The notes under the pieces were generated by a model that worked only from the letters and a program-made list of their open reading frames with translations, did no database searches and was not told the origin of the DNA. From the NCBI RefSeq assembly GCF_003721435.2, contig NZ_CP054585.1, positions 1,612,001-1,676,000 of the forward strand: DNA of 64,000 bases, written 5' to 3'. How positions within the stretch are numbered: the stretch's first letter is position 1; every line of letters starts with the position of its first letter. This DNA is from Halorubrum sp. CBA1229 (lineage in GTDB: Archaea > Halobacteriota > Halobacteria > Halobacteriales > Haloferacaceae). Below are positions 30,695 through 57,741 of this stretch, piece by piece. The translations under genes and the position numbers were made by a program.

Positions 30695-30700
30695 CCCACG

Positions 30701-34225: not shown

Positions 34226-35692
34226 TTATTCGTCGTCCGCATCTTCGAAGGGTACGTAGGATGACCCATGCTCAACGATCGAAATCGGTAAGGAGTCGTC
34301 AGTAACCTCCCCTGAGACTTGCTTTGTGAAGAGCACTGCTTCGATGCGATCGTCGATACCGCCATCCCGATACGGCTTCTTGAGTAGGTACTTATTGGCG
34401 CTGTTTGAGCACAAGTAGACGTATTCGAGCAGCTCACGAATACCCGATTTAAGATAGCTCTTGTTGTCGGAGTATTTCACCTCCCCAAGGAGAACTTTCT
34501 TTAGCGATCCGGTGTCTCGGTCGAGTTTATAGAGGATAATGTCTGGAATCCCCGCCCAGATATTGGAATCCGGGGAAATATCGAATGCTGTGTCTGCATA
34601 GGACGCAGCATGCGCTTCGGCTGCGAACATTCGGGGGAGATATCCTTCCGGATCACCAAGAGCGGTCTCAACTTCAGTCTCGACTGTAGACAGGGGGACT
34701 GCAAAGTCAAGCGGTCCCTCCGTTCGATTCGTCCGATAGAGCTCGTACGTCGATTCGGTGTTTTGCCATTCCGCAATCAAATCGTTGCTGTCGGTGACTG
34801 GCTTGAGCCGTGCATCCCCGAACGCCTCAATAAGCGAGAACATCCAGTAGAGTTCAAAGAGATCACTACCAGTCTCCGAGTCGGGCCGAATATAGGTATC
34901 CCTAAGTACTTCTCGGGCTTCCGATTCGGAGAAATCTTGACTGTCGATAACGCGATGATAGCGTTCTAGGAGGTGGGCTGCTTCCCGATAGATGGGCTTT
35001 CGCGTTCGTTTGACGGACCGGATCTCCCGCAGCGATATCGACCCCATGATACCGGGTTGTTGTTGCTCTCGTCGGTCGAGTGCGCGCATGACCGGGTTCT
35101 GTATCAGTGTCCGGTCGAGGATGGGCTTCAGTGGCTCACCATCGTCGGCTTGTAACCACGGGTTCAGCCACTGGAAGCCGTCTGGGTCATCGACTGCGGC
35201 CGCGAGTTCGTTTTCAAAGATCGACTGCAGAGTGATCAACAGTTCACGAAGGACACGGTTCCCAGTAATCAGTAGCTCATCCTCGTCACGACGGGTCACA
35301 TACGCGGTCCGATTGAGGTACCCCTGCTTCCGATACAGTTCCGTCGTCGCTTGCCAGTCGACAGGGCCATCGATACCGCCATGGGAAACCTGCCGTTCAG
35401 TATGAATATCCGTATCAAGCCGGCGGACCCGATCCGCTAACGTCCTCATAAACGGGATTACGCGTGGATTGTCTTCGTCGAAGCTGGACTGGTTGAGTCC
35501 GCTCAACAGAAAGTGAACCCGGAGTACTTCGTCCAAATCATCGACGTTGAGCGACGGCTGAGGGGTGGGTCTCCCATCAGTCAGCGAACTTGGGCCGGGT
35601 ATGCTGATCCCTTTTCCGAGGTACGTATGGAAGCTCTCGGCGACATCAGCCACGAGTTCGTTGCGAAACGTTGCCTCAGTATTCGACGGCAT
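34226..35692 (-). CDS. McrC-like PD-(D/E)XK nuclease, third gene of the GHKL-McrB operon
   Basis: The 488-residue product has a long helical N-terminal part of unknown function and a C-terminal nuclease core: IPDIIL near residue 382, then LLGEVKYSD near 402, the PD...ExK pattern of restriction enzymes. A helical region (IRELLEYVYLC) follows, as in McrC-type proteins. Its gene begins 2 bases after the McrB-like ATPase gene, matching the order mcrB-mcrC. It should cut DNA when powered by that ATPase. Overall similarity to classic McrC is low, so the nuclease assignment rests on motif and position. Confidence 0.78.
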   Translation of the reverse strand: MPSNTEATFRNELVADVAESFHTYLGKGISIPGPSSLTDGRPTPQPSLNVDDLDEVLRVHFLLSGLNQSSFDEDNPRVIPFMRTLADRVRRLDTDIHTERQVSHGGIDGPVDWQATTELYRKQGYLNRTAYVTRRDEDELLITGNRVLRELLITLQSIFENELAAAVDDPDGFQWLNPWLQADDGEPLKPILDRTLIQNPVMRALDRREQQQPGIMGSISLREIRSVKRTRKPIYREAAHLLERYHRVIDSQDFSESEAREVLRDTYIRPDSETGSDLFELYWMFSLIEAFGDARLKPVTDSNDLIAEWQNTESTYELYRTNRTEGPLDFAVPLSTVETEVETALGDPEGYLPRMFAAEAHAASYADTAFDISPDSNIWAGIPDIILYKLDRDTGSLKKVLLGEVKYSDNKSYLKSGIRELLEYVYLCSNSANKYLLKKPYRDGGIDDRIEAVLFTKQVSGEVTDDSLPISIVEHGSSYVPFEDADDE

Positions 35693-37843: not shown

Positions 37844-39865
37844 TCACTCAGTTACCCACGACAGATTCTCGGACGCCGTTTCCGGCGTGACGAACACAAA
37901 TTCATACGGGTCATCGTGGTCGTCAGTCCGATGTGTGATACTATCGTAATCGGACTGTGCGTCATCCGTAAGACCAGTACAGATCAGGATCGTCTTCCCA
38001 TATTCCCCCTCCCCGGATCGCTTGAAGTGGTCTTGATACATCATCATCTCGTAGATGTCTTCGGGCCGAGCCTGGCCATACACGATCTTATAGAGGTTAG
38101 TCGGACCATCCGCTTGATCGTGGATGATATCGATCTCGCCACCATCAAGCTCGGTTTCCGAACGGAGGCTATCTCCTGTCTTTGTGGATGCTTCTAGATT
38201 TTCAACGAGTGCTTCAATCCCTGTCTGGTCAGATTCGTCATCATCGTCGTCAGTCTCGTCGTCGTCATCCGTGCCGTCACCGTCGTCACCGCCGGATTCA
38301 TCATCGCCATCGGTTGTGTCGTCGCCGTTGTCGTCACCCGTATTGTCATCATCATCGTCATCCGTATCACCGTCGCCACCACTAACAGTGCCGCCGTCGT
38401 CATCGTCTGTCTCGTCATCGTCCCCAACCGTGGTATTGCCATTACTGCCCGTGTCGTCGCCACCATCACCTGTGCCAGTGTCATCATCGCCACCGTTCGT
38501 GTCGTTAGTGTCACCACCATCGCCACTGCTTGGATCGTCGTCATCGTCGTCCCGATCACTCTCGTATTGCGTTCGCTGTGGCTTTCGAGAGTCGTTATTG
38601 AGCCAGTCCCTCAATTTCTGCCACAGAGACGATGTCTTATCGATCCCTGTCTTCTCGTTATTCGTCGGCACCTCATGCTCTTCCAAGGCAGGTTCGATGC
38701 GGATGGCCCCGTTGAATCGGTTTAGTGTCTGGTGTCGGCTGATGTCAAACGGCCATTCATTCGTGTCTAACACCCGGCCGTTTGCATACACGTCAACCCC
38801 CGCATCGTTTGTCGAAATCCGATAGCGATAACGGAAGTTATCGCTTCCGTCCGTCGTCACTGTGAAGTTGCGGTCATCGGCATCGACCGCCTCACCCATT
38901 GCCTTGAGATCAATATTCCCATACTCATAGGAGACGTTGTACGTGACTCCGAGATCGTCCGTAATCGTCGTCGTATCGTAGCCGTATTTCGTGTCTTCGG
39001 GGATTTCTAAGTCAGCAACTGCGTCTTCGAATTCCTCGAACGTATCGTAGTCGGCCATATCCGAGGGGGCAGACTCGGCTGCGTCTATGAACGAAATGTC
39101 GACGGGCGGCACTTCGATCGTATCCTCGGAGGTAACCTCTTCGTCCCCGTCGATATCTCGGTAGGTGATCGTAATGGAGTTGTCCGCATGTGCACCCAAC
39201 AGCCGCCGGAAACGGATTCCGAGCACCAGCGCAACGTAGCTGGCTTTCATCGACATATTCGATGACATTCGGGCAACATCGTCATCGAAATCCGACCGTG
39301 CGGCGGTCAAATGCACGCGAGTCCCGGAAGAATCTGCTGAGAGTTCCGAAGTGCCTTCCGCCCAGAGCTCTTCATCCTCCGAGTTATAGACCGACATCTC
39401 ATTGCTAATCGGCCCATCAACCCGCTGAATCGGTGCGTCAGCATCGGTTCGGGAGAGCAGATGGAACGCGTTTGTCGAGAAATTCGCTCCCGGGGCCATC
39501 CGGAGCGAGTTTTCACACCAGGCAATACTGGCTTTGAGCCCCGCACCCATATTGTTGAGAATGCCGTCTGATGCATCCTCATTCGCAGTCTGGAAAATGA
39601 TATCCCGAATCGTATCCCGACCCATTCCCGGGCCTTCATCACCCACAATCGCGCGGACGGTATTCGGCCGGCGTTCTAAATCGATCTGGATCTTGACGGG
39701 TTCTGGATCTCTGAAGTACTGCTCGGATTTTACAGTTGCTGAGACCGAGTTATCGATCGGCTCTTGGAGCATCTCCAAGTACTCATCGTGCTGTTTTGCG
39801 AGAAAACTGGAGAGTTGCGCGAAATTGGAGGTTTGCTCAATCTCCTCAAGGTCTTGCGTTACCAT
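37844..39865 (-). CDS. MORC-like GHKL ATPase with Asp-rich linker
   Basis: The ATG at 39865 (GTG at 39892 is an alternative) gives 673 residues. The N-terminal GHKL ATP site is complete: EPIDNSV (catalytic Glu 35, Asn 39), VGDEGPGMG (76-82) and NNMGAGLKAS (105-112). An S5-like region follows to about 430. Residues about 435-547 are nearly only Asp, Gly, Thr, Ser and Asn. The C-terminal domain (GGEIDIIHD, YKIVYGQARPEDIYEMM) resembles a restriction-endonuclease fold without a clear ExK. MORC/paraMORC ATPases are known from prokaryotic restriction-modification neighbourhoods. It is the first gene of an operon with McrB- and McrC-like genes. Confidence 0.82.
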   Translation of the reverse strand: MVTQDLEEIEQTSNFAQLSSFLAKQHDEYLEMLQEPIDNSVSATVKSEQYFRDPEPVKIQIDLERRPNTVRAIVGDEGPGMGRDTIRDIIFQTANEDASDGILNNMGAGLKASIAWCENSLRMAPGANFSTNAFHLLSRTDADAPIQRVDGPISNEMSVYNSEDEELWAEGTSELSADSSGTRVHLTAARSDFDDDVARMSSNMSMKASYVALVLGIRFRRLLGAHADNSITITYRDIDGDEEVTSEDTIEVPPVDISFIDAAESAPSDMADYDTFEEFEDAVADLEIPEDTKYGYDTTTITDDLGVTYNVSYEYGNIDLKAMGEAVDADDRNFTVTTDGSDNFRYRYRISTNDAGVDVYANGRVLDTNEWPFDISRHQTLNRFNGAIRIEPALEEHEVPTNNEKTGIDKTSSLWQKLRDWLNNDSRKPQRTQYESDRDDDDDDPSSGDGGDTNDTNGGDDDTGTGDGGDDTGSNGNTTVGDDDETDDDDGGTVSGGDGDTDDDDDDNTGDDNGDDTTDGDDESGGDDGDGTDDDDETDDDDDESDQTGIEALVENLEASTKTGDSLRSETELDGGEIDIIHDQADGPTNLYKIVYGQARPEDIYEMMMYQDHFKRSGEGEYGKTILICTGLTDDAQSDYDSITHRTDDHDDPYEFVFVTPETASENLSWVTE

Positions 39866-40033
39866 GTATACAAATCTGCGGTTAGTGGTCACCCACTACC
39901 CAACACCATAATAGTATTTCGGAGACCATTTGGCGTCATCGAGCGATTTGAACGCATTTGCAGGGGTCCCCTCCGCTATACCATATCATTCGAATCGGAC
40001 TGCTTTAGTAGAAATCCACCTGACAGGCTAACT

Positions 40034-40279
40034 TCATATGTGATAAGAGTCTCGCCCGTGCTCGAGATATCGACATCGACGGTCCGTCTCGAACCGTATA
40101 TCCTGCTTACGAAAGATGATGTTCCCGAAGAAGTGGGACTTCTCTTCAGGGAGATACAGGAGGTCCTCGAACAAATCTGTGAGCTGGGGCTCTGTCCACG
40201 AATAGCTACGCTGGTAACTCGAAATATCGAACAACCCGTCTGTCAACAGGGAGTCAAGATGGATCGGGTCGGTTTCCAT
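40034..40279 (-). pseudogene. Truncated DUF262 / GmrSD-like protein
   Basis: The 81-codon frame contains SYQRSYSWTEPQLTDLFEDL and FFGNIIF, the N-terminal signature of DUF262 (GmrS part of modification-dependent restriction enzymes). It then stops before the DGQQR nucleotide-handling motif that follows in intact proteins. It should be inactive. It lies upstream of the GHKL operon on the same strand. Confidence 0.7.
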
Positions 40280-40394
40280 GATGGTACGAAGGTGTACAGT
40301 CGATATAAACTGGGATTGTCATGTCTCGGATGTATTGGAGCAATTTTTAATCAGGAATTTTAGCAGAGCCGATCGTTCAAAGTGATGACTGGGA

Positions 40395-40409
40395 GAGGGG
40401 GGTGCGTCC
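40395..40409 (+). repeat. ORB-like repeat copy 1
   Basis: GAGGGGGGTGCGTCC, within the longer match CTGGGAGAGGGGGGTGCGTC, followed by CGACAA. Copies 2 and 3 lie on the opposite strand nearer the Orc1/Cdc6 gene. Confidence 0.65.
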
Positions 40410-40481
40410 GACAAAACGATCGCATGTAGGATACTCACGTAGTGCGTCTATTACACTGATGATATTGTTTATATACCAACT

Positions 40482-40628
40482 TTAATTGCTACGCAGAGAT
40501 CTGTCTTCTGTAACTTCGATCCAAAGAAATACGGCTGCTACTCCAAGGATGAGCCCTGATATTATGTTGAGAACTCCTGTCGGAAGTATCTCCAGAACCG
40601 GCTGAATGCTGAGCCCGTCTGACGCCAT
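40482..40628 (-). CDS. Small membrane protein (48 aa)
   Basis: ATG at 40628 opens a 48-residue frame with a hydrophobic helix (GVLNIISGLILGVAAVFLW) and charged ends. It overlaps the 83-codon frame at 40562-40813 on the same strand, so at most one may be the main product over the overlap, or the two may be coupled. No family is recognised. Confidence 0.45.
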   Translation of the reverse strand: MASDGLSIQPVLEILPTGVLNIISGLILGVAAVFLWIEVTEDRSLRSN

Positions 40629-40813
40629 TTCGGCAGACAAATCGAGTTACCGGCTATGGAAAGAGCCTCGCCCAGAACTGGATCAAAACTACCAGCGAAC
40701 GCAAAGACCCCTGCCAGAATTGCAGTAAAAGGATCGATCCCTGCAGCTCCCAACCCTAGTAGAACTGCGAATTCACCGGATCCGCTGGCGACTGCCTGCT
40801 CTCGAGTCACCAT
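40562..40813 (-). CDS. Small membrane protein (83 aa)
   Basis: The 83-residue frame starts MVTREQAVASGSGEFAVLL and has a hydrophobic stretch (FAVLLGLGAAGIDPF and AILAGVFAFAGSFDP) and a basic, aromatic C terminus. AT-rich sequence just upstream could hold a promoter. It lies between ORB-like repeats, so it may belong to an origin region. Function unknown. Confidence 0.45.
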   Translation of the reverse strand: MVTREQAVASGSGEFAVLLGLGAAGIDPFTAILAGVFAFAGSFDPVLGEALSIAGNSICLPKWRQTGSAFSRFWRYFRQEFST

Positions 40814-40968
40814 ATCTCACATTACAAGGTTATAGCAAATAAAACCCAAAACGGATCGATGAGCATCCGTTAAGATTCACGCCGACCTCCACTCGATTCT
40901 ACGAATCTAGCTGAACTGTCTCATGTCGATCCGGCACGATGTTGACGAGCGGTTTGAGACTTGTTGTC

Positions 40969-40983
40969 GGACGCATCCCCCTC
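40969..40983 (-). repeat. ORB-like repeat copy 2
   Basis: On the minus strand it reads GAGGGGGATGCGTCC followed by GACAA, and it is preceded by CTGGGG. It differs from copy 1 at one base within the core. Confidence 0.65.
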
Positions 40984-41110
40984 CCCCAGGAAGACTAATT
41001 CAGAGCCGATGAATATGATCGTTGTTCCAGCTGCAGAAACAGTCATAGGATCGTCTGTGTCTCGTTGTTACGGGCCTCAACTCACCGTCTAGTATCTCGA
41101 TGATTTGCTG

Positions 41111-41125
41111 GACGCACCCCCCTCT
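41111..41125 (-). repeat. ORB-like repeat copy 3
   Basis: On the minus strand it reads GAGGGGGGTGCGTCC, identical to copy 1 in the 15-base core, but it lacks the CGACAA extension. Confidence 0.6.
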
Positions 41126-41261
41126 GTCCCTGTCCTCTACCTGAGGAACAGTGGAATAGCAAGGGAACCAACACCGATATTCTAGACGCTATCCCGTCTG
41201 CTAGTCAGGAAGACATGTAGGACACGGGGGTTTTATACGTAATACCTGAAAACGGGAGCGT

Positions 41262-42530
41262 ATGAAGGCGTTCGGCGACGAGGACACGATCTTCGAGGAT
41301 ATGGACGTCCTCAACCCTAACGAGCAGACGTATCAGCCCGAGTCGCTGCCGGAGCGCGAGGTCGAACTCGATCAGATCCACTCCGCACTCCGTCCAGCGA
41401 CGATGGGCTCGACGCCGCTCAACCTGATCGTATACGGTCAATCCGGGCAGGGGAAGACCGTCGGAATCCGCCTCAAGACCGACCAGCTTCAGGAGTACGC
41501 CGATGACTCCGAGATGGACCTCACCGTGGTTCACATCCGTTGTAAGGGCATGGACGGGTCCTATCACGTCCTGACGCATCTCGTCAAGCGACTCCGTGAG
41601 AAGCGATTCGGCCCCGGTGAGGAGCTCCCGAGCGGTCACCAGCGGAAGACCCTCCTCAACATGGTGATCGAGAACTTGGAGGAGATCGGCGGGACGGTCA
41701 TCGTCGTCCTCGACGAGATCGATGCCATCGGCGACGACGACTACATCCTCTACGAACTCCCGCGGTCGAATCCGGACGGGGTCCGTCTCTCGCTCATCGG
41801 AATCACGAACGACCTCCAGTTCCGTGAGAACCTCGACGCCGACGTCCGGTCGAGCCTTGGCGAGGATGAGGTTCGCTTCGAACCCTATGACGCCGATCAG
41901 CTCCGCAACATCCTCGCACGGCGTGCCGTCGGTGCCCTCCGTGACACGTATTTCGAGGACGATATCGAGGACTACCAGCATCTCCGAAGCGAGATTCTAA
42001 GCGACGACACGATCCCGCTTGCTGCGGCGTTAGGCGCACAGGACACGGGAGACGCTCGCGAAGCGATCCGGCTGCTGTTCCGTGCGACCAGATTCGCCGA
42101 CGATAGAGGTGAGACGATCGTCACAGAAGAGCACGTGCGCGAGGCACGTGACTTCCTCGAGACGAAGGCTATCGAGTCGGGGATTCAGACACTCCCGAAT
42201 CAACGAATGCTCGCGCTCATGGCGGTCACGTATCACGGGATTCACGGCGATACCCCCGTGACGACAACACCGATCTACACCCAGTACAAGACCTTCTGCG
42301 AGTACGCAGAGGTGAACGCCCTCTCGAACCGGCGATTCCGTGACCGACTCAACGATCTCGCCGATACGAACGTGCTCAATAAGCGGCAGGGCCGGGGTCG
42401 TGGAGACGAAAACCAGTATTCGCTGGCGGTCGATCTCGATACGGCGCTCGAGAATCTCCCGAAGGAATCGGAGCGTCTGGGGGATGTCGCAACGGTTCTT
42501 CGAGAACAGGGTGGTGTTGCGGGCAACTAA
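41262..42530 (+). CDS. Orc1/Cdc6 family AAA+ replication initiator
   Basis: The 422-residue product has Walker A YGQSGQGKTVG near residue 67, Walker B VVLDEIDAIGDDD near 150, sensor and lid regions, and a C-terminal winged-helix domain (about 300-400). This is the archaeal Orc1/Cdc6 layout, which binds ORB repeats and opens origins. Three ORB-like repeats lie upstream. It sits between two defence operons. It may drive replication of the element when excised, or act as a regulator. The start at 41262 follows a TATA-like box by 28 bases, so the transcript is likely leaderless. Confidence 0.9.
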   Translation: MKAFGDEDTIFEDMDVLNPNEQTYQPESLPEREVELDQIHSALRPATMGSTPLNLIVYGQSGQGKTVGIRLKTDQLQEYADDSEMDLTVVHIRCKGMDGSYHVLTHLVKRLREKRFGPGEELPSGHQRKTLLNMVIENLEEIGGTVIVVLDEIDAIGDDDYILYELPRSNPDGVRLSLIGITNDLQFRENLDADVRSSLGEDEVRFEPYDADQLRNILARRAVGALRDTYFEDDIEDYQHLRSEILSDDTIPLAAALGAQDTGDAREAIRLLFRATRFADDRGETIVTEEHVREARDFLETKAIESGIQTLPNQRMLALMAVTYHGIHGDTPVTTTPIYTQYKTFCEYAEVNALSNRRFRDRLNDLADTNVLNKRQGRGRGDENQYSLAVDLDTALENLPKESERLGDVATVLREQGGVAGN

Positions 42531-42547
42531 CCCCGAATGCCGTCTTC

Positions 42548-42594
42548 CTATGGTAACCTGTTGTTCGCTTAGAAATAACAGAGAGCTACCATAG
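42548..42594. promoter_or_regulatory. Long inverted repeat between orc and the helicase operon
   Basis: CTATGGTA (42548-42555) pairs with TACCATAG (42587-42594), and inside it CTGTT pairs with AACAG. It may terminate orc transcription or serve as an operator for the PLD-helicase operon, which starts 37 bases later. Confidence 0.5.
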
Positions 42595-42630
42595 ACTTAT
42601 TTCGATGCTTTACCACAATCCAACAATCAA

Positions 42631-44676
42631 ATGAGCGAGGACGACCTGTTTACCACCTTGGATATCCCTCGGGTTATCGATACTTCTGACGTAGATTTTG
42701 TTGAAGCCTTCTATAATCCACTCCTTTCTCGCTCTGTTGAATATAAACGCGGTGTTGGATATTTCACCACCAACTGGCTTCGTTCCGCATCACGCGGGAT
42801 CGCTGAACTCGCAGATAATGGTGGAACAGCGAAATGGATTATGAGTCCCATGCTGGAAAAAGACGACTGGGACGCGATTAAGCGGGGCGAAGCTGCGAAG
42901 AAGGATGAAATCCTCCGAAGCGAATTGAAGGATGAGATTCGGGACCTCCAATATGATCTCGAATATCAAACTCGGAACGCAATTGCATGGATGATCGCAG
43001 ATGGACTTCTGGAAATCCGATTTGCGATCCCAGAGCAAAAACTCCACGGAGATTTCCATGACAAATTCGGTATATTTCGCGATCCAGATGGAAACAAAGT
43101 GGCATTTCACGGATCAAAAAATGACAGTGCTCATGCTTTTGAGAACTATGAGGCATATAGTATAGATTGTGACTGGCTGAGTGAGCGTGACGCAGAAGGT
43201 GTTTCTCTGCAAGAGAAGCGCTTTGATGAGATTTGGGAGGGACAAAAAGCGAATCTTAACGTAATTCCTCTACCTGAGGGCATAGAACAAGATATCGCAG
43301 ACCTTCGCGATCGCGACCATAGACCGTACGAGAATCCAGAAGAGGGAGGAGATAACATCACCCTCCGTCCCTACCAACGAGAAGCAGTTGACAGCTGGTT
43401 TGCTAATCAAAACCGAGGTCTGTTCCGGATGGCTACGGGTACTGGGAAGACTTTCACTGCCCTGGGAGCGATGGACGAATTTATTGAACAAACAGTAAAG
43501 CCGATGCTCGTGGTTATTGCAGTTCCGTATACCCACCTTGCTAATCAGTGGAAGGAAGAGTTAGAGAAATTTGGTTACAGCAATCCGAAATTCCTCTACG
43601 GATCGGCAAATACTGAGTGGAAAGCGGATCTATCGCGTCTCCTCTCAGACTTGGCACTCGGGCTCGGCTCTGATCAGCTCGTAATTACAACACACACTAC
43701 GCTTGCAAGCGAATATTTTCGGGATCAAATACAACGCTCAGGTTGTGAGACACTCTTGATCGCTGATGAGGTCCATGGCCTAGGATCCAGTCACCGTCGT
43801 GAAGCGCTCTTGGATGAATATGAATACCGTATTGGTCTGTCTGCAACCCCGGAGCGCCATTATGATGAAGAAGGTTCGGAATATCTTCTCGACTACTTTG
43901 GAGACATCGTGTTTGAGTATTCTTTGGGGGAAGCCATTCCGGAATTTCTGACGCCATACGACTACTATCCGATTATTGTTGAGTTGACGGAAGAAGAGAT
44001 GGAAGACTACAGTTCCCTCTCGAAACGACTCGCAAAGGCATATGCAAGCGACGATGCTGACGAGGAGTTGGTAAATCGGTTGGCGATGAAACGTGCAAAC
44101 ATCATAAAAAGTGCCGAGAATAAATACGTGAGTCTCCGTTCCGTCCTGAAATCAATCGGAGAGCCTGACCACCTCCTCGTTTATACTAACTCGCAGCAGA
44201 TCGATCATGTTCAGGACATATTGAACGAACTCGGAATCCGCCAGCATAAATTCACTTATCGCGAAGACGATACAGAACGACAGCGTCTCTTGAATTCGTT
44301 CGATGAAGGTGATGTTGATGCACTCGTTGCAATGAAGTGCCTCGATGAGGGGGTAGACGTCCCTTCTACCAAACAGGCGATCCTAATGTCGAACACGGGA
44401 AATCCAATGCAGTTTATTCAGCGTCGTGGACGAGTGCTTCGAAAATATCCGGGGAAAGAGAAGGCGCTAATCTACGATTTTATTGTAGTCCCAACTATGA
44501 ATCCAACCCAGCAGATTGCGGACTCTGAGAAGAATATTCTCCGAAAGGAATTGCGTCGGTTCGAAGAATTTGCCGAAAACGCTCGAAACGAACACGCTGC
44601 TCGAAACGAGATTGAGGAAATTCGAATGGAATATAGTATTGCTGGAGACGATAAAGAAGAACGCGATCCCAATTAA
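42631..44676 (+). CDS. PLD-domain superfamily II helicase
   Basis: The 681-residue product joins an N-terminal phospholipase D-like nuclease half (GDFHDKFGIF near 140 and GSKND near 161) to an SF2 helicase: Walker A MATGTGKT near 268, DEVH near 379, SATP near 403 and QRRGRVLRK near 597. PLD-helicase fusions act as restriction-type nucleases or remodelers in several defence systems. It leads an operon with a small protein, a DndD-like ATPase and a Dnd4-like protein. The AT-rich composition contrasts with the orc gene just before it. A single HxK motif implies dimerisation for nuclease activity, as known for the family. Confidence 0.85.
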   Translation: MSEDDLFTTLDIPRVIDTSDVDFVEAFYNPLLSRSVEYKRGVGYFTTNWLRSASRGIAELADNGGTAKWIMSPMLEKDDWDAIKRGEAAKKDEILRSELKDEIRDLQYDLEYQTRNAIAWMIADGLLEIRFAIPEQKLHGDFHDKFGIFRDPDGNKVAFHGSKNDSAHAFENYEAYSIDCDWLSERDAEGVSLQEKRFDEIWEGQKANLNVIPLPEGIEQDIADLRDRDHRPYENPEEGGDNITLRPYQREAVDSWFANQNRGLFRMATGTGKTFTALGAMDEFIEQTVKPMLVVIAVPYTHLANQWKEELEKFGYSNPKFLYGSANTEWKADLSRLLSDLALGLGSDQLVITTHTTLASEYFRDQIQRSGCETLLIADEVHGLGSSHRREALLDEYEYRIGLSATPERHYDEEGSEYLLDYFGDIVFEYSLGEAIPEFLTPYDYYPIIVELTEEEMEDYSSLSKRLAKAYASDDADEELVNRLAMKRANIIKSAENKYVSLRSVLKSIGEPDHLLVYTNSQQIDHVQDILNELGIRQHKFTYREDDTERQRLLNSFDEGDVDALVAMKCLDEGVDVPSTKQAILMSNTGNPMQFIQRRGRVLRKYPGKEKALIYDFIVVPTMNPTQQIADSEKNILRKELRRFEEFAENARNEHAARNEIEEIRMEYSIAGDDKEERDPN

Positions 44677-44743
44677 CCATAGTTATAATATTAGCGAGCC
44701 AGACATTTAAGTAAACTACTGTACTCTGTACTGTTAGACCTCA

Positions 44744-44926
44744 ATGAATAAATCCGACGTAAACAGTCTCATCTTGGAGCACGTCGACAAGATTGAGACC
44801 GATAATAAGCGTCAGTTTATCAACGAAATCCTCACTTTCGAGCGGTCTAAGATGGATAGGGAGCAACCCCATTTTAAAGATGAATACGATGAGCTCATCG
44901 AGAAATATATGAGTGATCCGGAATGA
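44744..44926 (+). CDS. Small helical protein coupled to the DndD-like ATPase
   Basis: The 60-residue product (MNKSDVNSLILEHVDKI) is charged and helical. Its stop overlaps the ATPase start by 4 bases (ATGA), indicating coupled translation. Size and position match the small gene before the ABC ATPase at 22553. No family is recognised. Confidence 0.65.
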   Translation: MNKSDVNSLILEHVDKIETDNKRQFINEILTFERSKMDREQPHFKDEYDELIEKYMSDPE

Positions 44927-46893
44927 CGAATTTACAGTTTTTATCGATCACGCTGAATGACTACCGTCAGTACAAGGGTGAACAGAAGATAGATCTTCAA
45001 ATCCGTAATGATCGTCATATAAATGTCATAGAGGGTCAAAACGGTGCTGGAAAGTCCAACATCCTGAATTCGATCACTCTCTGTTTTTATGGTACTGAGG
45101 AACATCTAAAAGACGAGAAGGAGGGTGGATTGGAGACGTTTCCTCTCGTTAACCGAGACCGTCTCGAAGATCTTGATGAAGATGAGACGGCAAAGGGATA
45201 TGTCGAAATAGAACTTGGAGAAAACGAGCCCGAATACGTTTTTAAACGAGAATTTACCACCGTCAAAACGCCTTCTGGGTTCAATAGCACTATTGGGGAT
45301 TTACGTCTTCAACGTCGAGTAAACCGAGACTGGAAACCAGTCGATAATCCCCATACCTACCTGAATGAGATATTACCTACTCGTGTACATGAATACTTCC
45401 TATTCGACGGAGAACGTCTTCACGAATTCTTCGAGGAAGGTTACCCAGAGAGGGTTCAGACAGCAATACTCGATGTCTCTCACATCGAGCTATTAAACCG
45501 ATCTCTGGACCATCTCGAGAAGATGGACACAGAAATCGGACGAAAGGCATCCAACTTCGAAGGAGAAGCAAAACGGTTGAAAAATCAGCTTGACGAAAAG
45601 AAGCAGGAACGTGAGCAAAAGAAGGAAAGAAAACAAGAGTTAGAAGCAAACATCGCTGAAGCAGAGTCCACAATCACTGGAATAGATAATAAGCTAAGAG
45701 ACAGTAGTGATGCCGCGGTTCGCGAAAAGCAAGAACGCCGAAAGTATTTGAATGACCGCCTAGACCAACTCGAAGACGAAATTGACGATCTGAAGGAAGA
45801 AACGACTGAGGAGATGGTGCAAGCAGCACCCATCATCTACAATCTCAAAGCGTTGGAATATACGCATGAGCAATTCGCGGAATTGGCTCAGACTGGTCAA
45901 CTTCCACCGAAGATCCAAGACTGGTTCGTACAGGAACTCCTTGAGAAGGGAGAGTGTATCTGCGGTGCCAATCTTGATTCCGATGAAGAAAAGCGACGCC
46001 ACCTCGCAGAACTTGAACAAGAGATGTCTCTCGTGATGCAAGAGAATCTTGAAGGAAAAGCTGAAATTCCGCGTATTATCGAAGACGGTCAGGACTCTCT
46101 TCGTCAAATTATTGAGAATCGTAAAAAGATCTCTGAACGCCAGACTGAAGTTGATAATGTGGATGTCGAACTACGCGACATTTCTAACGAGCTCAAGAAC
46201 TACGATTTACCTGAGGATGTCGATGTGAGTAGTCTTGAATCTCAACGTAGCGAAATTGAGGATCGAATTACCGAAATGAGCCAAGAGATCGGTCGAGTGG
46301 ACCAACAGATTGAGACTCTGACCGAAAAGATCGACGAGCTTGATGAAGAGTGGCGTGATGAAGCGGCAAAAGAGGACAAACACCGGAGGCTGATGAGGAA
46401 ACTGGACTTCGTTGAGGAGGCCAGTGAGGAGATTTCCGAGATTAAGCAGACTATCCTCACACAAATCCGGAAAAATACAGAAGAGAACATGAATCAGTAC
46501 TTTAATGATCTCATTTGGAAGGATGAGGAGTATACTGTTGAGCTAGGAGAGAACTATACTGTAAGCGTGTATGGAAAACACGGCGACAACAAAATCGGAT
46601 CCCTGTCAGCCGGTGAGAAACAAGTTCTCGCATTATCGTTCATGTCTGCCTTAACCAAGATTAGTGGATTTAACGCGCCAATAGTAATCGACACTCCTCT
46701 TGGAAGGATCTCGAGCAAACCAAAGAAACGTATCGCACAAAATCTCCCAACGTACTTGAAAGATACTCAAATAACGTTCCTCATGACTGACGAGGAATAT
46801 ACCGATGATGTCCGTGCCCGTCTGCAAAACAGCGTTGCTAACGAATATCAGCTTGACTATTCGAATGAAGTTACCGAGGTGAGAGAAGTATGA
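44923..46893 (+). CDS. DndD-like SMC/ABC ATPase
   Basis: The 656-residue product starts with LNDYRQYKGEQ, Walker A GQNGAGKSN (about 38-46) and the family-typical YFLFDGERLHEFF near 165. It has coiled coils around a single CICG hook near 343, the signature LSAGEKQVLAL near 563, and Walker B IVIDTPLGRIS near 587. The FDGE and DTPLGR blocks are diagnostic of DndD from DNA phosphorothioation systems. DndD nicks or remodels DNA for sulfur insertion, but no dndA, dndC or dndE is nearby. It is likely part of a related restriction system with the PLD-helicase. Confidence 0.82.
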   Translation: MTNLQFLSITLNDYRQYKGEQKIDLQIRNDRHINVIEGQNGAGKSNILNSITLCFYGTEEHLKDEKEGGLETFPLVNRDRLEDLDEDETAKGYVEIELGENEPEYVFKREFTTVKTPSGFNSTIGDLRLQRRVNRDWKPVDNPHTYLNEILPTRVHEYFLFDGERLHEFFEEGYPERVQTAILDVSHIELLNRSLDHLEKMDTEIGRKASNFEGEAKRLKNQLDEKKQEREQKKERKQELEANIAEAESTITGIDNKLRDSSDAAVREKQERRKYLNDRLDQLEDEIDDLKEETTEEMVQAAPIIYNLKALEYTHEQFAELAQTGQLPPKIQDWFVQELLEKGECICGANLDSDEEKRRHLAELEQEMSLVMQENLEGKAEIPRIIEDGQDSLRQIIENRKKISERQTEVDNVDVELRDISNELKNYDLPEDVDVSSLESQRSEIEDRITEMSQEIGRVDQQIETLTEKIDELDEEWRDEAAKEDKHRRLMRKLDFVEEASEEISEIKQTILTQIRKNTEENMNQYFNDLIWKDEEYTVELGENYTVSVYGKHGDNKIGSLSAGEKQVLALSFMSALTKISGFNAPIVIDTPLGRISSKPKKRIAQNLPTYLKDTQITFLMTDEEYTDDVRARLQNSVANEYQLDYSNEVTEVREV

Positions 46894-47345
46894 CTGACAC
46901 TGATCCTGATATTGAGTACGAAGATACAGAAGCAGGGCGCGACGTTATTGTTGACGACCAAGCGCGCGAGTACTACGACACATTAGTTGAAGAGGAAGAC
47001 TCGCCGTTCTATGGCGTACAACGAATTGATCTGTTCATGTTCGCACTCGGATACGGTAAAAAACGAGCTGGGCAGGTGACGCAAGGTTCCGGTCGTAATG
47101 CCCTGTTTAATCGCCCCTCTTTGTCCGAACAACAAGAATGGATTATTAAATCAATCGCGACATACGAAGAGCGAGACCCTCAGGTACTTCGAGACGAGAA
47201 GCAAGTGTATCAAATAGCTCAAGAATATGCACGAGGAGGTATCGAAGAGCTACATAATCTATACATTCGACCGGGTGATTCATTCAGTGAACTTACTACA
47301 GATCTCGTCCAAATAGGTAAAGTATTTTATGATTTCGAAGAGTAG
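46890..47345 (+). CDS. Dnd4-like small protein, last gene of the helicase-DndD-like operon
   Basis: The 151-residue product overlaps the DndD-like gene by 4 bases. The central VQRIDLFMFALGYGKKRAG resembles the FxFAxxxGY..(K/R)R core of Dnd-system-associated protein 4. The remainder is helical. Dnd4 proteins accompany phosphorothioation loci, but their role is not settled. Alternative: an unrelated small subunit of the complex. Confidence 0.6.
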   Translation: MTDTDPDIEYEDTEAGRDVIVDDQAREYYDTLVEEEDSPFYGVQRIDLFMFALGYGKKRAGQVTQGSGRNALFNRPSLSEQQEWIIKSIATYEERDPQVLRDEKQVYQIAQEYARGGIEELHNLYIRPGDSFSELTTDLVQIGKVFYDFEE

Positions 47346-47395
47346 TAGCAATACTCCACGACAAGAACCGATCTGATATTATATATTCATCAGAC

Positions 47396-48949
47396 TCAAC
47401 TATTGTTGAATTTCTCTATCGCTCGATCAACGGATCCGAATACTTCCTCAAAATAGGTGGGTGGATACCGTGCGAACGATCGAATATCTGCACTCGTTGT
47501 TTGACCTGCAACAGCATTATTAACCCACTCTACCTCATCAAGGAGTGATTGCTCAGAAGGAAGCATATACTCGTTCCAGAGCTTGTCGATTTCTTTTGAA
47601 CTGAGTCCACTGACGCCCGCCTTTTTTAATGCAGCTTCCCAGTTGACAAAATGATTCTTTACTGTCTGCGAGGTCATGTCCGCATACCTATCGAAATCAC
47701 TAGTCGTTGGTACAGCGCCAACACGAATCGTAACACGGCGGATCTCCTCCAGCAATTCTTGTCTCATGTATCCCTGAGGAGATTCATTATCAGCAACCGC
47801 AGCATCACCATCATAACCCGCATTTTTGAGTGCACTAATCCACGTATCGAACACGTCTCTTACAGTTACTACTGATAGAGTAGACTGTCGCTCAAACTCG
47901 TACGGTGTGGGAGGATCTGCTGGGACTGTTCCGATACGCTTCAATTCCTGAACTACCCCTTCCCTATCAGGGTTTGGTGTTTCTGGCTTGTCCTGTTGGC
48001 TATCCGTCTCTTGCTCAAATGCTTCTTCAGTGATTCCTGCTAATTCAAAAGCAGTGGATAAATTGCCGAAATTGTCACTAACTGAAATCGCATAAAGATC
48101 TGTATTTTTCCAGACATCAATTGGTTCCGGTACCTCACCAACTTCTGCGGCGTATTCACAAAGCTCATCCAAAATATCCACTCTTGATTGGTTCCTTGTT
48201 TTCACCTTTTCTGTATCTACTTGAGAGAGATCGGCAGACTCTAATGCCTTTTCCCACGAACCAAATCGACTTTCATACGCGCTGATCGGATACGAGCCAT
48301 AGTGAGTTACAAATTCTTCAGTTGGAGGTTCTCCAAATATTTCAAATAGTCTGCTGAGATAGTCCTCTAACTCTTCTCGAGTATATTTCGACTCAGCATC
48401 ACTCGCTGTCTCTTTCGAGTCATCCTGTACTTCTGAGCTAGAGGAAGCTTTCTCCAAAGACGGACTCCACTCAAATTCTTCTTCATTAGAGTCAACGGCC
48501 GCATGTTTCTGTGAATCGTCTGCTTCGTTTTGGTCCAGCTCTTCATTCTCTGTTGCTTGAGACTCTATTTCCCGGCTTTTTTCGTCCAAATGCTCTTTCG
48601 CAGTACTCCACTGTCCAAAGTACCGTGCATACATACTGCTACTATAACGGCCCATGGAGTTCATTTCAGTTGCCGTCGGCTTCCGACCCAACTCTACCGT
48701 CACTTGTTGAAGCTCTCTAAGGAGTTCTTTTTCTTTGTTTATTCCTGCCGCTTCTAGTGCATCATCCCAGGACCCAAACTTGGTTCGGTACGCCTCAACA
48801 GTATAATTACTTTTCTCTGAGATGTCAGATGGGTACGGTAAGCGGTCCAGAGACGAATCAATTTGACATAGCTCGCTGATTAGTTCATCACGAGATGGTG
48901 ACTCCGCCGGCTGATTCATATCGGAGGACCCCTCTGTTTCCTTTTTCAC
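47396..48949 (-). CDS. Protein made of tandem homing-endonuclease-associated HTH repeats
   Basis: The 517-residue product contains about seven repeats of roughly 50-60 residues. Each has a pattern like P(x)..(Y/F)xxx(Y/F)G(S/N)WxxALxxAG, for example FGSWDDALEAAG, FGSWEKALESAD, FDTWISALKNAG and FVNWEAALKKAG. This repeat accompanies homing endonucleases and probably binds DNA. No nuclease domain is present. It lies convergently to the DndD-like operon and divergently to the GHKL-methyltransferase fusion gene (202 bases apart). It might supply sequence recognition for a neighbouring enzyme; that is inference. Confidence 0.78.
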   Translation of the reverse strand: MKKETEGSSDMNQPAESPSRDELISELCQIDSSLDRLPYPSDISEKSNYTVEAYRTKFGSWDDALEAAGINKEKELLRELQQVTVELGRKPTATEMNSMGRYSSSMYARYFGQWSTAKEHLDEKSREIESQATENEELDQNEADDSQKHAAVDSNEEEFEWSPSLEKASSSSEVQDDSKETASDAESKYTREELEDYLSRLFEIFGEPPTEEFVTHYGSYPISAYESRFGSWEKALESADLSQVDTEKVKTRNQSRVDILDELCEYAAEVGEVPEPIDVWKNTDLYAISVSDNFGNLSTAFELAGITEEAFEQETDSQQDKPETPNPDREGVVQELKRIGTVPADPPTPYEFERQSTLSVVTVRDVFDTWISALKNAGYDGDAAVADNESPQGYMRQELLEEIRRVTIRVGAVPTTSDFDRYADMTSQTVKNHFVNWEAALKKAGVSGLSSKEIDKLWNEYMLPSEQSLLDEVEWVNNAVAGQTTSADIRSFARYPPTYFEEVFGSVDRAIEKFNNS

Positions 48950-49150
48950 TGTCTCTTACCTGTATTTCCAATTAGAAAATTCTTGTCTGTAAGCCACCAT
49001 AGTGTTTAATCGAGAGACGACACTTTTCCTGAGAGCTAGTTCTATGGGTTGTCTCAACCAGATCCATAGATTAAACCGGGATAAGGGAATCATGTAGTAC
49101 AAGCCCCAGTATGATGGTTAATACAAAAGTCACGGAGGAACATTCGTTTC

Positions 49151-52057: not shown

Positions 52058-52169
52058 CTGTATAAGCCCGTAACTGTCGTTCTCTGTTTTCTTCTCCCGT
52101 GAACTTGGACCCTCGCCTAACGGTTAGCTCTATGCTTGTCTGGTAAATCTGATCTACAACGATACGTGC

Positions 52170-53036
52170 TTAGACGTAATTTCCCAGATCCTGCTGCTGC
52201 TGGTCTTCTTTCGCGACATTTGTGATGATCACTTCAGCGACATCGTCCCGGTTATCCGGATCGCTGTTTATCATCCTCGACGCACCGACAGTGCTCACAT
52301 CGAATTCGTCGATATCTTGGTACAATTCCCACACCGGTGGTGAATTCGAGATTACGACGTTGACTCCCGTATTACTGAGTTGCTCGGCTAAATCTCGGAG
52401 ACGCCGTTGATCGTCTTTATTGAACCCTTCGGACTGATATTCGGTAAAATCCGCGGTCTGTGATACGGGTTCGTAGGGGGGATCGAAATACACGAGATCA
52501 CCTTCGGCTGCGCGGTCCTTCAAATATGAAAAGTCTCTATTGTATATCTCAATATGTTCAAGAACGGCACTTGCCTTCCGAATTTGGCGTTCTCTGACAA
52601 AGTCCGGATTCCGGTGAGTCCCGAATGGCACATTAAATTCGTTAGATTGGTTAACACGATAAAGTCCGTTATACCCTGTTCGATTTAGATACAACATCAA
52701 GCTCGCTTCCTCTATCTCCTGTTCTATCGACCGCTCTTCGAGCTGATGTAATTCATTAAAACGATCTCGGGCGTCGTAATAATAGCCTTCTTCGTATCTG
52801 TGCCGCTGATTCTCCTCTATTAGGTCCTCTGGATAATCTCGAATAACTTCATAGAATGTAATCAATCGTCGGTTGAGATCGTTTATTGATCCTTCAGTGG
52901 GTTCCATTTCAAAGAACACCGCTCCTCCTCCAATAAACGGCTCGTGGTACTCCTCATACGAAATCGGGAAGTGTGCTCTTAGCTCCTGAAGCAACTGTCG
53001 CTTCCCACCTACCCACTTAAGAATCGGCTCAGCCAT
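52170..53036 (-). CDS. Dam-type (D12 class) adenine-N6 DNA methyltransferase
   Basis: The 288-residue product has KWVGGKRQLL at the N terminus, the AdoMet-binding PFIGGGAVFF near 35, and the catalytic DPPYEPV near 178. This order and size define the Dam/MT-D12 family, which methylates adenine in short sites. It is convergent with the fusion gene. It may protect against restriction by one of the neighbouring nucleases. The target sequence cannot be read from the gene. Confidence 0.93.
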   Translation of the reverse strand: MAEPILKWVGGKRQLLQELRAHFPISYEEYHEPFIGGGAVFFEMEPTEGSINDLNRRLITFYEVIRDYPEDLIEENQRHRYEEGYYYDARDRFNELHQLEERSIEQEIEEASLMLYLNRTGYNGLYRVNQSNEFNVPFGTHRNPDFVRERQIRKASAVLEHIEIYNRDFSYLKDRAAEGDLVYFDPPYEPVSQTADFTEYQSEGFNKDDQRRLRDLAEQLSNTGVNVVISNSPPVWELYQDIDEFDVSTVGASRMINSDPDNRDDVAEVIITNVAKEDQQQQDLGNYV

Positions 53037-53257
53037 CTACTCAAGCTATCTATCGTTACGTCATAAACCTAAGGCTCCTCACTTTTGAGATGTATTGATC
53101 TCTTATTGAGATTGCCGACCGCAAATACTGGGATCCCTATGCCAATAGAATCAGTACTTAATTTCTGATATGTAAGACGAATTACCAGACTGATCGGCAC
53201 ATAAATTCAAAATATCGATCACAACTAGTCCAACTGTGTAACAACCACCCGATGAGG

Positions 53258-53271
53258 ATTTCGACAGAGCC
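53258..53271. repeat. Isolated IS-like terminal repeat
   Basis: ATTTCGACAGAGCC matches, with one change, the right end of the element at 20884-20897. No partner end is seen within a few hundred bases, so it is a scar or one end of a degraded IS. Confidence 0.5.
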
Positions 53272-53308
53272 AAATAGATTAATATGCTATCAGATCAACC
53301 AATATGAC

Positions 53309-53767
53309 ATGACATCCCGACGCCACTATCCCAGTATTGGGGAGATAATCGAAGTCAAGCCGGAGTCGGTGTCAAGATCATCGAGATTAAAAGGCAAAAG
53401 CCCACTATCATTTGGAGCAGACCAGGTACTGATAAAAAACAAGAATCTGGACGGGATCTTATCTACAGATATTCAAAATGCGATAGATGGAGATGAAACC
53501 CCGTTTCGTATAAGAGAGGTGAAAGAAAAACACCCAGCAAAAATTGTTGATATTTCCAGTGGTCACATCACGGTGGAATTCCTTTCTGAAGAAGAGATCC
53601 GTGCAAATGAGGACTCTGAGTCGCTATTTAATCCGCCAGAACGAGAGGAATCAGTAGACGGAGAATGGGAAGGAACTCCACAGGAAGTGGACGATGAGAA
53701 GACTAAAAGGCGGAATGAAACGTTCAACGAGGGCGATCGCCGTGGATCAAAGAATGATTTGCTATGA
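53309..53767 (+). CDS. Protein of unknown function (152 aa)
   Basis: The ATG at 53309 is chosen because TTAATAT lies about 28 bases before it; the longer frame starts inside an IS-like end. The N-terminal half may form a small beta-barrel (SIGEIIEVKPESV, HPAKIVDISSGHITVEF), and the C-terminal 50 residues are charged and disordered. No family is recognised. It is flanked by two methyltransferase genes on the opposite strand. Confidence 0.6.
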   Translation: MTSRRHYPSIGEIIEVKPESVSRSSRLKGKSPLSFGADQVLIKNKNLDGILSTDIQNAIDGDETPFRIREVKEKHPAKIVDISSGHITVEFLSEEEIRANEDSESLFNPPEREESVDGEWEGTPQEVDDEKTKRRNETFNEGDRRGSKNDLL

Positions 53768-53856
53768 GATTGTACTGACCACAGCGGAGCGTGCCACTAA
53801 TAGAGACTTCGATAGGCCGGAAATGATTAAGACCGTCGGTAATGTCATTTCATACA

Positions 53857-54069
53857 ATGACGACTAGCCAGGATACTCACCCAACGCAAGATATCTACGA
53901 AGAAAAGGCCAAAATGCTGGTTGAGCAACTGATTGAAAGAGGGACCATCGAGATGGAACATGACGAACCAATTTTATATCACGTGCCTACCGGCGCTCAG
54001 TTCGATTCAGTAGTGAATATAGCTCATTTCCACAGGGGATGGGAAGCAGCTCAGACTGGAGAGACATAA
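53857..54069 (+). CDS. Protein of unknown function (70 aa)
   Basis: From ATG 53857 the product has a helical segment (EEKAKMLVEQLIERG) and a short conserved-looking end (AHFHRGWEAAQ). It ends 4 bases from the end of the convergent methyltransferase gene. No family is recognised. It may be cotranscribed with 53309. Confidence 0.5.
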   Translation: MTTSQDTHPTQDIYEEKAKMLVEQLIERGTIEMEHDEPILYHVPTGAQFDSVVNIAHFHRGWEAAQTGET

Positions 54070-54073
54070 CCAA

Positions 54074-55621
54074 TTAGCTAAAATTGGTGAAGTTCGCTTG
54101 GCGGCCATCGGTATCTCGCTTCCGTTTGTCCATCGGATTTTCTACCTGTATTTTCAGGTTTGACACGAGTGGCGGGTTCTTATTCGACTGATATCGCTTC
54201 CATTCGCCTTCTTCAACAAGTGCTTTCCAATCTTCGGGCGAGAAGCTGTGTTCGGCCCAACTGTGGATTCCGTTGACATAAAGGTGGAACCGTCTCTCCG
54301 AGTCCTGATTATATTCTGCCGAATACTTGTTGAGATATTGATCAACGGTAGTAAACCTAGCATCAAATTCGACACCGTAGTAGTCTCCAGAACCTTTGTT
54401 CTCAGAAAGCATTCCTTCCTTCGCATCTTCCATTTCTATGCCTGTGAAGGCCTCTTTCGAACTAGAAACGAAGAGTAACTCCGCACTCGGATCATCGGAA
54501 TCACTGAATGTTGAGGGATCACTGAACGCATGAATGAACTCGATTTGATCTCCCCGAATATCATGGTCGTCGGAGTTTGCGAGCTCTTTGTATAGTTCGT
54601 ATGCGTATTTGTGGATCCGAAGAGTGTAGATCTTCTGTGCGAGTTCCGCCTGCTCGTCTCGTAGTGTCGACTGGACAGTTCCTACCTCACGAAGAGCAGT
54701 TGGTCGCACGTGCTTCTCGTAATAATCAATATATTCTTCATTAAGTTCGAATCCGAGTGGTTTTCTGTCTAGTGCTTCGGCAATCGCAAGAGTGGTTCCA
54801 ATTCCCGCAAACGGATCGAATACGACATCTCCAGGCTCAGATGCTAGATGTACGATTCTTTCTACGAGACCTTCCGGAAACGGGCTCGGATGGTAACTTA
54901 CCTTTGGTCCCCACTGTCCCTGTTTCGGGATTGGGAAATCCCAGACATTACTCGGAACCATCCCCTTTGGATTGTACCGTTCTGGGTAATTCACCCACCA
55001 CCGCTCAAATTCGTCTGTATCCGTAATCCGGATGGCATCCTTGTCGTATTTGAAATCATCCGTCTTTGAGAACATCGTAATGTGCTCATAGACGTTACGC
55101 AGGCGTCCTTTCTGGTGCCAAGGCCGTGTCCGGAGCTTATCCCAGATAATATTGTCTTCCATCCGCCACGAATCCTGTAGTGGATCGTACACTGACCCAC
55201 ACTCTCGGCAGATTAACGAGCCATCTCCCCGGTTGCGTTGAAGACACCCATTACAATTCTCTTCGAGACACGTCTCATAATTCGGTAAATTCTCGAGCTC
55301 GTCAGCAATATCAAACGGGAGTCGAACGACACGACCACCGGTTTTGTACGTATCTGTTACGATCCATAGGGTACAGTCATCTGCTGCAATCTCGTAACAT
55401 TGCTTGTATATCTCCCGAATATCGCTGAGAAAATCCTCATAGCTCTGTTTTCCTACCTGCTCATCTTGATCGCCATAATCGACGAGGTCAGCATACGGGG
55501 GAGAAGTAATGATGGTATCGACGAGCCCGTCAACGTTACTGAATTCTTTCTCCAGTCTCGTTTTCAACTCTCGTGAGTCATGTTGATATATGCGATATTG
55601 AGAGTCTGGTTCGTCGCTCAT
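54074..55621 (-). CDS. Stand-alone DNA methyltransferase, homologous to the fused enzyme
   Basis: The 515-residue product has TSPPYADLVDYG near 39, a partial zinc-binding insert (CNGC...CREC, about 120-138) and DPFAGIGTT near 270, the beta-class motif order. Its length, inserts and C-terminal region (PPLVSNLKIQVENP) correspond to residues about 435-968 of the GHKL fusion (PPIVSNIGIEVNHP). It probably methylates N4-cytosine or N6-adenine. A PD-(D/E)XK gene lies upstream on the same strand and could be its restriction partner. Confidence 0.88.
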   Translation of the reverse strand: MSDEPDSQYRIYQHDSRELKTRLEKEFSNVDGLVDTIITSPPYADLVDYGDQDEQVGKQSYEDFLSDIREIYKQCYEIAADDCTLWIVTDTYKTGGRVVRLPFDIADELENLPNYETCLEENCNGCLQRNRGDGSLICRECGSVYDPLQDSWRMEDNIIWDKLRTRPWHQKGRLRNVYEHITMFSKTDDFKYDKDAIRITDTDEFERWWVNYPERYNPKGMVPSNVWDFPIPKQGQWGPKVSYHPSPFPEGLVERIVHLASEPGDVVFDPFAGIGTTLAIAEALDRKPLGFELNEEYIDYYEKHVRPTALREVGTVQSTLRDEQAELAQKIYTLRIHKYAYELYKELANSDDHDIRGDQIEFIHAFSDPSTFSDSDDPSAELLFVSSSKEAFTGIEMEDAKEGMLSENKGSGDYYGVEFDARFTTVDQYLNKYSAEYNQDSERRFHLYVNGIHSWAEHSFSPEDWKALVEEGEWKRYQSNKNPPLVSNLKIQVENPMDKRKRDTDGRQANFTNFS

Positions 55622-57737: not shown

Positions 57738-57741
57738 CGGG
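57721..57741 (-). terminator. Hairpin downstream of tRNA-Arg
   Basis: CCCGTCA (57721-57727) and TGACGGG (57735-57741) are perfect 7-bp arms overlapping the tRNA 3' end. It may aid termination or 3' processing. Confidence 0.4.

Follow-up and report, generated by a model that had tools for sequence, protein, structure and literature searches.

A GHKL ATPase-methyltransferase fusion accompanies Pbe genes in haloarchaea and probably belongs to a methylation-type restriction-modification system

PbeABCD was described in haloarchaea as the antiviral effector of the DndCDEA-PbeABCD system (Xiong 2019, PMC6459918), and Pbe was later reclassified as a CxC ABC-ATPase/DndE system that includes an HKD nuclease-helicase (Wang 2024, PMC10853773). 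In the 2019 survey, dnd modification genes were missing from the vicinity of 320 of 553 PbeAC pairs, and a pairing of solitary Pbe with methylation was suggested (PMC6459918); N4 methylases have also been reported beside CxC systems (PMC10853773). GHKL ATPases are known from restriction-modification loci, where DNA looping was proposed for them (Iyer 2008, PMC2292703), and methylases from the neighborhood of McrBC (Bell 2024, PMC11090510). Here we analyze a 64,000-nucleotide stretch of Halorubrum sp. CBA1229 (contig NZ_CP054585.1, positions 1,612,001 to 1,676,000; hereafter the window) that encodes a GHKL ATPase fused to a DNA methyltransferase. We consider it probable that this locus is a methylation-type Pbe restriction-modification system, made up of a modification module that includes the fusion, restriction by PbeABCD, coupling through an ATP-driven clamp and an exchangeable GHKL-McrBC cassette.

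The fusion and its constant neighbors

A first-pass annotation of the window had noted that the two halves of the fusion resemble a stand-alone GHKL protein and a stand-alone methyltransferase. All three open reading frames were found where it had placed them (Table 1), and the sharing of domains is real and far beyond chance. Fusion residues 6-399 align with the GHKL protein at 38% over 433 amino acids (BLASTP, E = 4e-76), and residues 431-955 with the methylase at 31% over 534 amino acids, C-terminal extension included (E = 2e-79). Pfam profiles recognize HATPase_c_3 (6e-8, above cut-off) and N6_N4_Mtase (6e-41) in the fusion and N6_N4_Mtase (1e-41) in the second methylase. The stand-alone GHKL protein gives a sub-threshold HATPase_c match only (0.007), so its assignment comes from its similarity to the N-terminal half of the fusion; it carries the motifs EPIDNS, DEGPGM and GILNNMGAGLK. 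Across 12 sequences (eight fusions and four stand-alone proteins), E32, N36, D74-x-G-x-G, GILNN-G-GLK and GT are invariant.

The methylases are equally well preserved, with TSPPY, DxFxGxG and four zinc-ribbon cysteines kept across 18 aligned rows. These motifs answer to the SPP[YFW] motif IV and DPFxG motif I expected of N4-cytosine methyltransferases. By an established rule, an SPPY motif marks enzymes that act on N4 of cytosine, and the fusion and the second methylase are predicted to do the same. We infer this target base from motifs, because the nearest methylase structures include both N4-cytosine and N6-adenine enzymes. A structural model of the stand-alone methylase (predicted local distance difference test score, pLDDT, 73) matched beta-class methylases of both kinds, and its structure matches gave no identity for the C-terminal extension.

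Full-length fusions occur in 8 of 391 haloarchaeal genomes, a count from class-wide scans that scored two or three candidates per genome and may have missed weak copies. Further fusions in named collections, from Halosimplex pelagicum R2, a Haloquadratum metagenome-assembled genome and a Halococcus dombrowskii plasmid, bring the total to 11 loci. At every one of these the fusion is adjacent to a second methylase, PbeA and PbeC, and at eight of them Dam was found as well. Fusion and PbeC co-occur at the genome level with P ~2e-9, uncorrected for kinship. The Pbe partners belong to three unlike clades: the type of the window, that of genome G148, whose PbeA has no HKD motif, and that of G207 and Halorhabdus amylolytica (genome code G269). 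PADLOC confirmed the divergent effectors of the latter two types as Pbe proteins.

These linkages divide the first-pass proposal of one modification-plus-restriction machine, in which the GHKL ATPase and the methylase act together and, through an operon of GHKL, McrB-like and PD-(D/E)XK genes, with a nuclease. The first half is upheld by the single polypeptide, which is full-length in all ten complete copies (the eleventh, on the metagenome contig, is cut off), but the route to a nuclease through the McrBC operon is not. Likewise, a second methylase and a nuclease/helicase module do always neighbor the fusion, but the module in question is Pbe and not the McrBC-like pair.

A phylum-wide sample contained no fusion outside the haloarchaea, a scan of viral contigs for the GHKL domain returned nothing, and phage records gave methylase-only matches. 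Two plasmid records carry the fusion, from Halococcus dombrowskii and Halobaculum rubrum (G139). A GHKL match on a Lactiplantibacillus plasmid was set aside as no fusion; its neighbor is a Sau3AI-like enzyme, and the methylase half is lacking. In Halorubrum halodurans (G205), the remnant of a second fusion gene, comprising its first ~46 codons, lies between the GHKL-McrBC operon and pbeA (L054 9939-10193). A promoter shared by pbeA and the fusion was considered and dropped: the similarity is present in this genome only and is a fragment of fusion coding sequence.

Effector exchange and the absence of DndC

The partner that the first-pass annotation missed is a PbeABCD (CxC ABC-ATPase/DndE) cassette lying between the GHKL-McrB-McrC operon and the fusion. 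PbeA matches its PADLOC profile at E = 4.5e-239 and TIGR04095 at 487 bits, below the 600-bit cut-off, and contains the motif HDKFGIFRD. PbeC matches at E = 0 (PADLOC, 1023 bits) and has the CIC hook, P-loop and LSAGE. The candidate pbeB frame overlaps the start of pbeC by 4 bases and was assigned by position; a 64-amino-acid gene is annotated at the equivalent place in Halobaculum rubrum. The putative PbeD matches TIGR04062 (dnd_assoc_4) under cut-off (E = 3e-7) and no PADLOC profile, but synteny agrees with the assignment, and the gene is syntenic in most clade A Pbe loci.

The strongest evidence on the role of the fusion comes from pairs of genomes in which the effector has been swapped. Between G148 and Halorubrum xinjiangense (G103), the fusion, methylase and Dam are 90%, 89% and 82% identical, compared with 40% for PbeA and 31% for PbeC. 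Between G207 and Halorubrum aidingense (G210), the corresponding values are 87%, 84% and 90% for the modification genes and 33% and 27% for the effectors. The fusion, methylase and Dam are thus inherited as one block, and their effectors are replaced by distant ones, with a Pbe effector always present. Because near-identical modules (82-90%) are paired with unrelated effectors (27-40%), we conclude that the fusion travels as a modification module; together with the methylase and often Dam, it probably makes up the modification side of a restriction-modification system based on Pbe. One could suppose instead that the fusion is a regulatory methylase, its GHKL domain controlling methylation (for example during replication) with no part in the choice of effector targets. 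The invariant catalytic motifs and zinc ribbon would fit such an enzyme. This reading does not explain, however, why the fusion keeps strictly to Pbe effectors although these come from three unlike clades, and we hold it to be very unlikely.

DndC (TIGR03183) was found in none of ten genomes with the fusion or methylase, that of the window included; the same model scored over its cut-off in 4 of 26 further genomes with Pbe. Because it is absent from the ten, we regard Pbe here as methylation-type rather than phosphorothioate-type. Clade A Pbe loci that lack the fusion often have a different SPP-type methylase directly after PbeD, indicating that Pbe is commonly paired with methylases, as the earlier surveys had pointed to (PMC6459918, PMC10853773).

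Several further genes cluster around PbeD. In another Pbe subtype (L150, L152-L155, L146, L147, L149), an SPP-type methylase of ~454-470 amino acids follows it, often with genes for ~202 and ~156 amino acids behind. Two conserved proteins of ~380 and ~330 amino acids adjoin PbeD at L142 (15752-17871) and also at L141, L139, L062 and L069; the smaller contains, judged by eye, a LAGLIDADG-like stretch (YVAGMFDAKGRIRF). Near PbeD of Halorubrum xinjiangense lies a different GHKL protein of 489 amino acids (L062 4828-6297), whose endonuclease-like C-domain retains ExK.

The GHKL-McrB-McrC operon and the surrounding island

As the first-pass annotation had it, the stand-alone GHKL gene heads an operon with the McrB-like and PD-(D/E)XK genes: the three lie head-to-tail, with gaps of ~10 and 2 bases, and are co-inherited. 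The McrB-like protein matches AAA_5 (2e-21) and Escherichia coli McrB structures (1e-16) and has the Nx(xx)D signature (MNTHDK). A PDB search with its N-terminal region, aimed at a winged-helix sensor of methyl-adenine, gave no significant match. Residues 5-170 match the N-terminal half of an HNH nuclease of Halorhabdus amylolytica (L138 18204-19196), which suggests a common domain that may sense DNA or a mark. The McrC-like protein keeps an invariant PD...E(V/C)K motif in six relatives, and Pfam and PADLOC profile searches found neither DUF2357 nor any nuclease family above threshold. In an alignment read by eye, the C-domain of the stand-alone GHKL protein aligns with that of the Halorubrum xinjiangense GHKL protein but lacks ExK.

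Close relatives of this GHKL protein occur in 5 of the 391 genomes, each time beside a McrB-like gene; the copy in G042 is truncated and sits beside a transposase. Downstream of the McrC-like gene of the window is a transposase gene (32631-33464) that is 92% identical to the one abutting the truncated GHKL gene (L073 9602-10435).

Could the whole locus be one integrated machine, as first proposed, in which the methylases mark self, the GHKL clamp recruits McrB and McrC to unmarked DNA, and Pbe is a bystander? The shared GHKL and methylase domains and the constancy of the GHKL-McrB-McrC arrangement (5/5) speak for it. The operon adjoins the fusion or methylase in the window, Halorubrum halodurans and Halorhabdus amylolytica, and a related methylase in G352. 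G148, moreover, has a co-directional run of fusion, methylase, Dam, PbeA, PbeC, a 157-amino-acid DndE-like gene, McrB and McrC. Nevertheless, the operon is missing from 8 of 11 fusion loci, while Pbe is present in all, and G352 has the operon but not the fusion; the independent distribution that was to tell against one system is therefore partly found. The sequence histories are decoupled as well. Between the window and G352, the operon is 88-93% identical and Pbe 49-57%; between the window and Halorubrum halodurans the contrast is reversed, with Pbe and the fusion at 76-84% and the operon at 40-45%. The fusion and operon GHKL ATPases are ~37-44% alike and separate in a tree, weakly once Halorhabdus amylolytica is included. 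Integration is thus quite unlikely, and the operon is probably a separate, independently exchanged cassette with an accessory role.

Its association with Pbe is nonetheless recurrent. The operon adjoins Pbe or methylase genes in four of its five genomes, and four of the five have Pbe (P = 3e-4, kinship ignored). McrBC genes without GHKL also stand directly after PbeC and the DndE-like gene in G148 and G079. McrBC-type cassettes have therefore come to lie next to Pbe on several occasions. This suggests cooperation, and the repeated re-association of the operon itself (four of five copies) argues for a functional affinity. We also asked whether McrBC replaces the HKD nuclease missing from the G148 PbeA and rejected the idea, as PbeA proteins lacking HKD are general in that clade and mostly without McrBC.

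Alternatively, the locus may combine two unrelated cassettes of one defense island, Pbe as a methylation-type system and GHKL-McrBC as a type IV system, with GHKL domains reflecting parallel use of a widespread paraMORC module. Their independent exchange, the other defense-like cassettes that recur at these loci and the wide occurrence of GHKL ATPases in restriction-modification loci (PMC2292703) are all consistent with this, and we treat it as a serious possibility, though not the favored one. It accounts less well for the placement of GHKL-McrBC no more than ~1.5 kb away from Pbe or methylase genes in Halorubrum halodurans, Halorhabdus amylolytica and G352, or for the statistical and positional association of McrBC with Pbe described above.

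The genes described here (Table 1) lie in a GC-poor tract at ~19-57 kb of the window (GC content mostly 0.39-0.60, against 0.6-0.73 outside) that ends near a tRNA-Arg gene at 57738 and is packed with defense-type genes. The HNH-repeat protein is present at 4 of 11 fusion loci, including those of Halorubrum halodurans, Halorubrum aidingense and Halosimplex. An Orc1/Cdc6-type gene (41262-42530) separates the GHKL operon from pbeA, and relatives of it occur at most 10-20 kb from several other Pbe loci. A cassette of metallophosphatase, SMC/LmuB-like ATPase, NurA-like and HerA-like genes (25493-32503), which looks like another defense module, recurs near the Pbe loci of Halorubrum xinjiangense, Halorhabdus amylolytica and G022.

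Table 1. Genes of the locus, in window coordinates
Feature	Position	Strand	Basis
McrC-like subunit, PD-(D/E)XK motif (GIPDIIL...LLGEVKYS)	34226..35692	-	motif kept in relatives
McrB-like AAA+ protein, NxxD clade (MNTHDK), 325-aa N-terminal region	35695..37833	-	AAA_5
Stand-alone GHKL (paraMORC-like) ATPase, acidic linker, degenerate restriction-endonuclease-like C-domain	37844..39892	-	38% to fusion
PbeA, HKD nuclease and superfamily 2 helicase	42631..44676	+	PADLOC PbeA
Candidate PbeB, 60 aa	44744..44926	+	open reading frame at pbeB position
PbeC, CxC-type ABC ATPase	44923..46893	+	PADLOC PbeC
Putative PbeD, DndE-like	46890..47345	+	TIGR04062 dnd_assoc_4 below cut-off; synteny
HNH-repeat protein, accessory	47396..48949	-	PF18780 8.7e-70
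GHKL ATPase fused to beta-class DNA methyltransferase (SPPY, predicted N4-cytosine), Cys4 Zn ribbon, C-terminal extension, 968 aa	49151..52057	+	BLASTP, Pfam
Dam-family adenine methyltransferase	52170..53036	-	TIGR00571 6e-81, above cut-off
Stand-alone SPPY methyltransferase, C-terminal extension as in fusion	54074..55621	-	BLASTP, Pfam

Possible mechanism and comparison with described systems

In the system that we favor, a modification module made up of the fusion, the stand-alone SPPY methylase and, in most cases, Dam would mark self DNA, as their families suggest. By analogy with the phosphorothioate system, PbeABCD would restrict DNA without the right mark, which here would be methylation instead of phosphorothioation. 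The GHKL half of the fusion, whose ATPase motifs are intact, would most likely dimerize with ATP to give a MutL/Hsp90-like clamp able to hold or bridge DNA, and this clamp may couple methylation state, or docking of the methylase, to the Pbe effector. GHKL-McrB-McrC would then contribute a second nuclease, an AAA+-driven PD-(D/E)XK enzyme that brings a GHKL partner of its own; the cassette would have been recruited next to Pbe more than once and perhaps cooperates with it.

Several points weigh against this model. PbeABCD expressed without dnd genes was non-toxic and gave no defense (PMC6459918); because it is harmless alone, the mark may be something that Pbe requires and not simply a protection from it, which would alter the restriction step. 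Co-location by itself is weak evidence, since the metallophosphatase-SMC-NurA-HerA cassette also recurs near Pbe, and the fusion may hitch-hike in defense islands as an orphan methylase or a regulatory one. E. coli McrBC cuts DNA containing N4-methylcytosine, so the operon would conflict with N4 methylases unless the specificity of this McrB differs. Finally, structure prediction for the fusion reached a pLDDT of 53, and so poor a model supports nothing beyond an Hsp90-like fold.

The first-pass label of a MORC-type clamp is plausible for the fusion ATPase. Its GHKL ATP-binding motifs are intact, and the MORC signature GhXhhpXXRhl of the S5 region is matched by GVDIYANGRVL at 10 of 11 positions, the polar position being A or G. 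Foldseek with the low-confidence model found Hsp90 and SMCHD1. A PDB profile search, by contrast, retrieved no MORC structure; its GHKL matches were limited to histidine kinase, Hsp90 and topo VI (E 0.02-0.3). Because of the imperfect signature and this search, MORC-type is not established. A bolder version of the model strikes us as unlikely. In it, a MutL/MORC-like ATP clamp built into a methylase would sense methylation state and license Pbe effectors that can be exchanged for one another, while a second nuclease, clamp-McrBC, would serve as back-up. If true, this version would be a prokaryotic parallel to methylation-coupled MORC silencing.

We found no GHKL-methylase fusion in the searchable literature. 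What appears to be new is the fusion itself, together with its strict association with Pbe and the exchange of effectors; the component parts are of known kinds. The natural genome pairs with a constant modification module and an exchanged effector (27-40%) make self/non-self recognition by Pbe without phosphorothioation testable by swapping, and the fusion offers a single protein for assaying the connection that has long been suspected between MORC-like ATPases and methylation of DNA.

The closest described systems each share part of this locus. DndCDEA-PbeABCD (Xiong 2019, PMC6459918) is also haloarchaeal and has PbeA, a PbeB-sized gene, PbeC and PbeD in identical order, the PbeD of the window being putative; here, however, there is no DndC, and methylases, one of them fused to GHKL, replace the phosphorothioate module. 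McrBC type IV systems (Bell 2024, PMC11090510) and NTD-wH-NTPase/McrC pairs (PMC11037411) similarly combine an NxxD McrB with a PD-(D/E)XK McrC near methylases, but in our operon GHKL comes first, the N-terminal region of McrB is unlike the solved specificity domains, and McrC has no DUF2357 match. MORC and paraMORC ATPases (Iyer 2008, PMC2292703) pair GHKL and a predicted S5 region with neighboring superfamily 2 helicases, nucleases and methylases, whereas here the methylase is part of the same polypeptide and the MORC signature is matched at 10 of 11 positions. The CxC ABC-ATPase/DndE systems (Wang 2024, PMC10853773), in whose description a word search found neither GHKL nor MORC, have the same HKD-superfamily 2 protein, small protein, CxC ABC ATPase and DndE (putative in the window), with cytosine-N4 methylases in some neighborhoods; our locus differs in having two SPPY methylases and Dam, one of the methylases carrying a GHKL domain.

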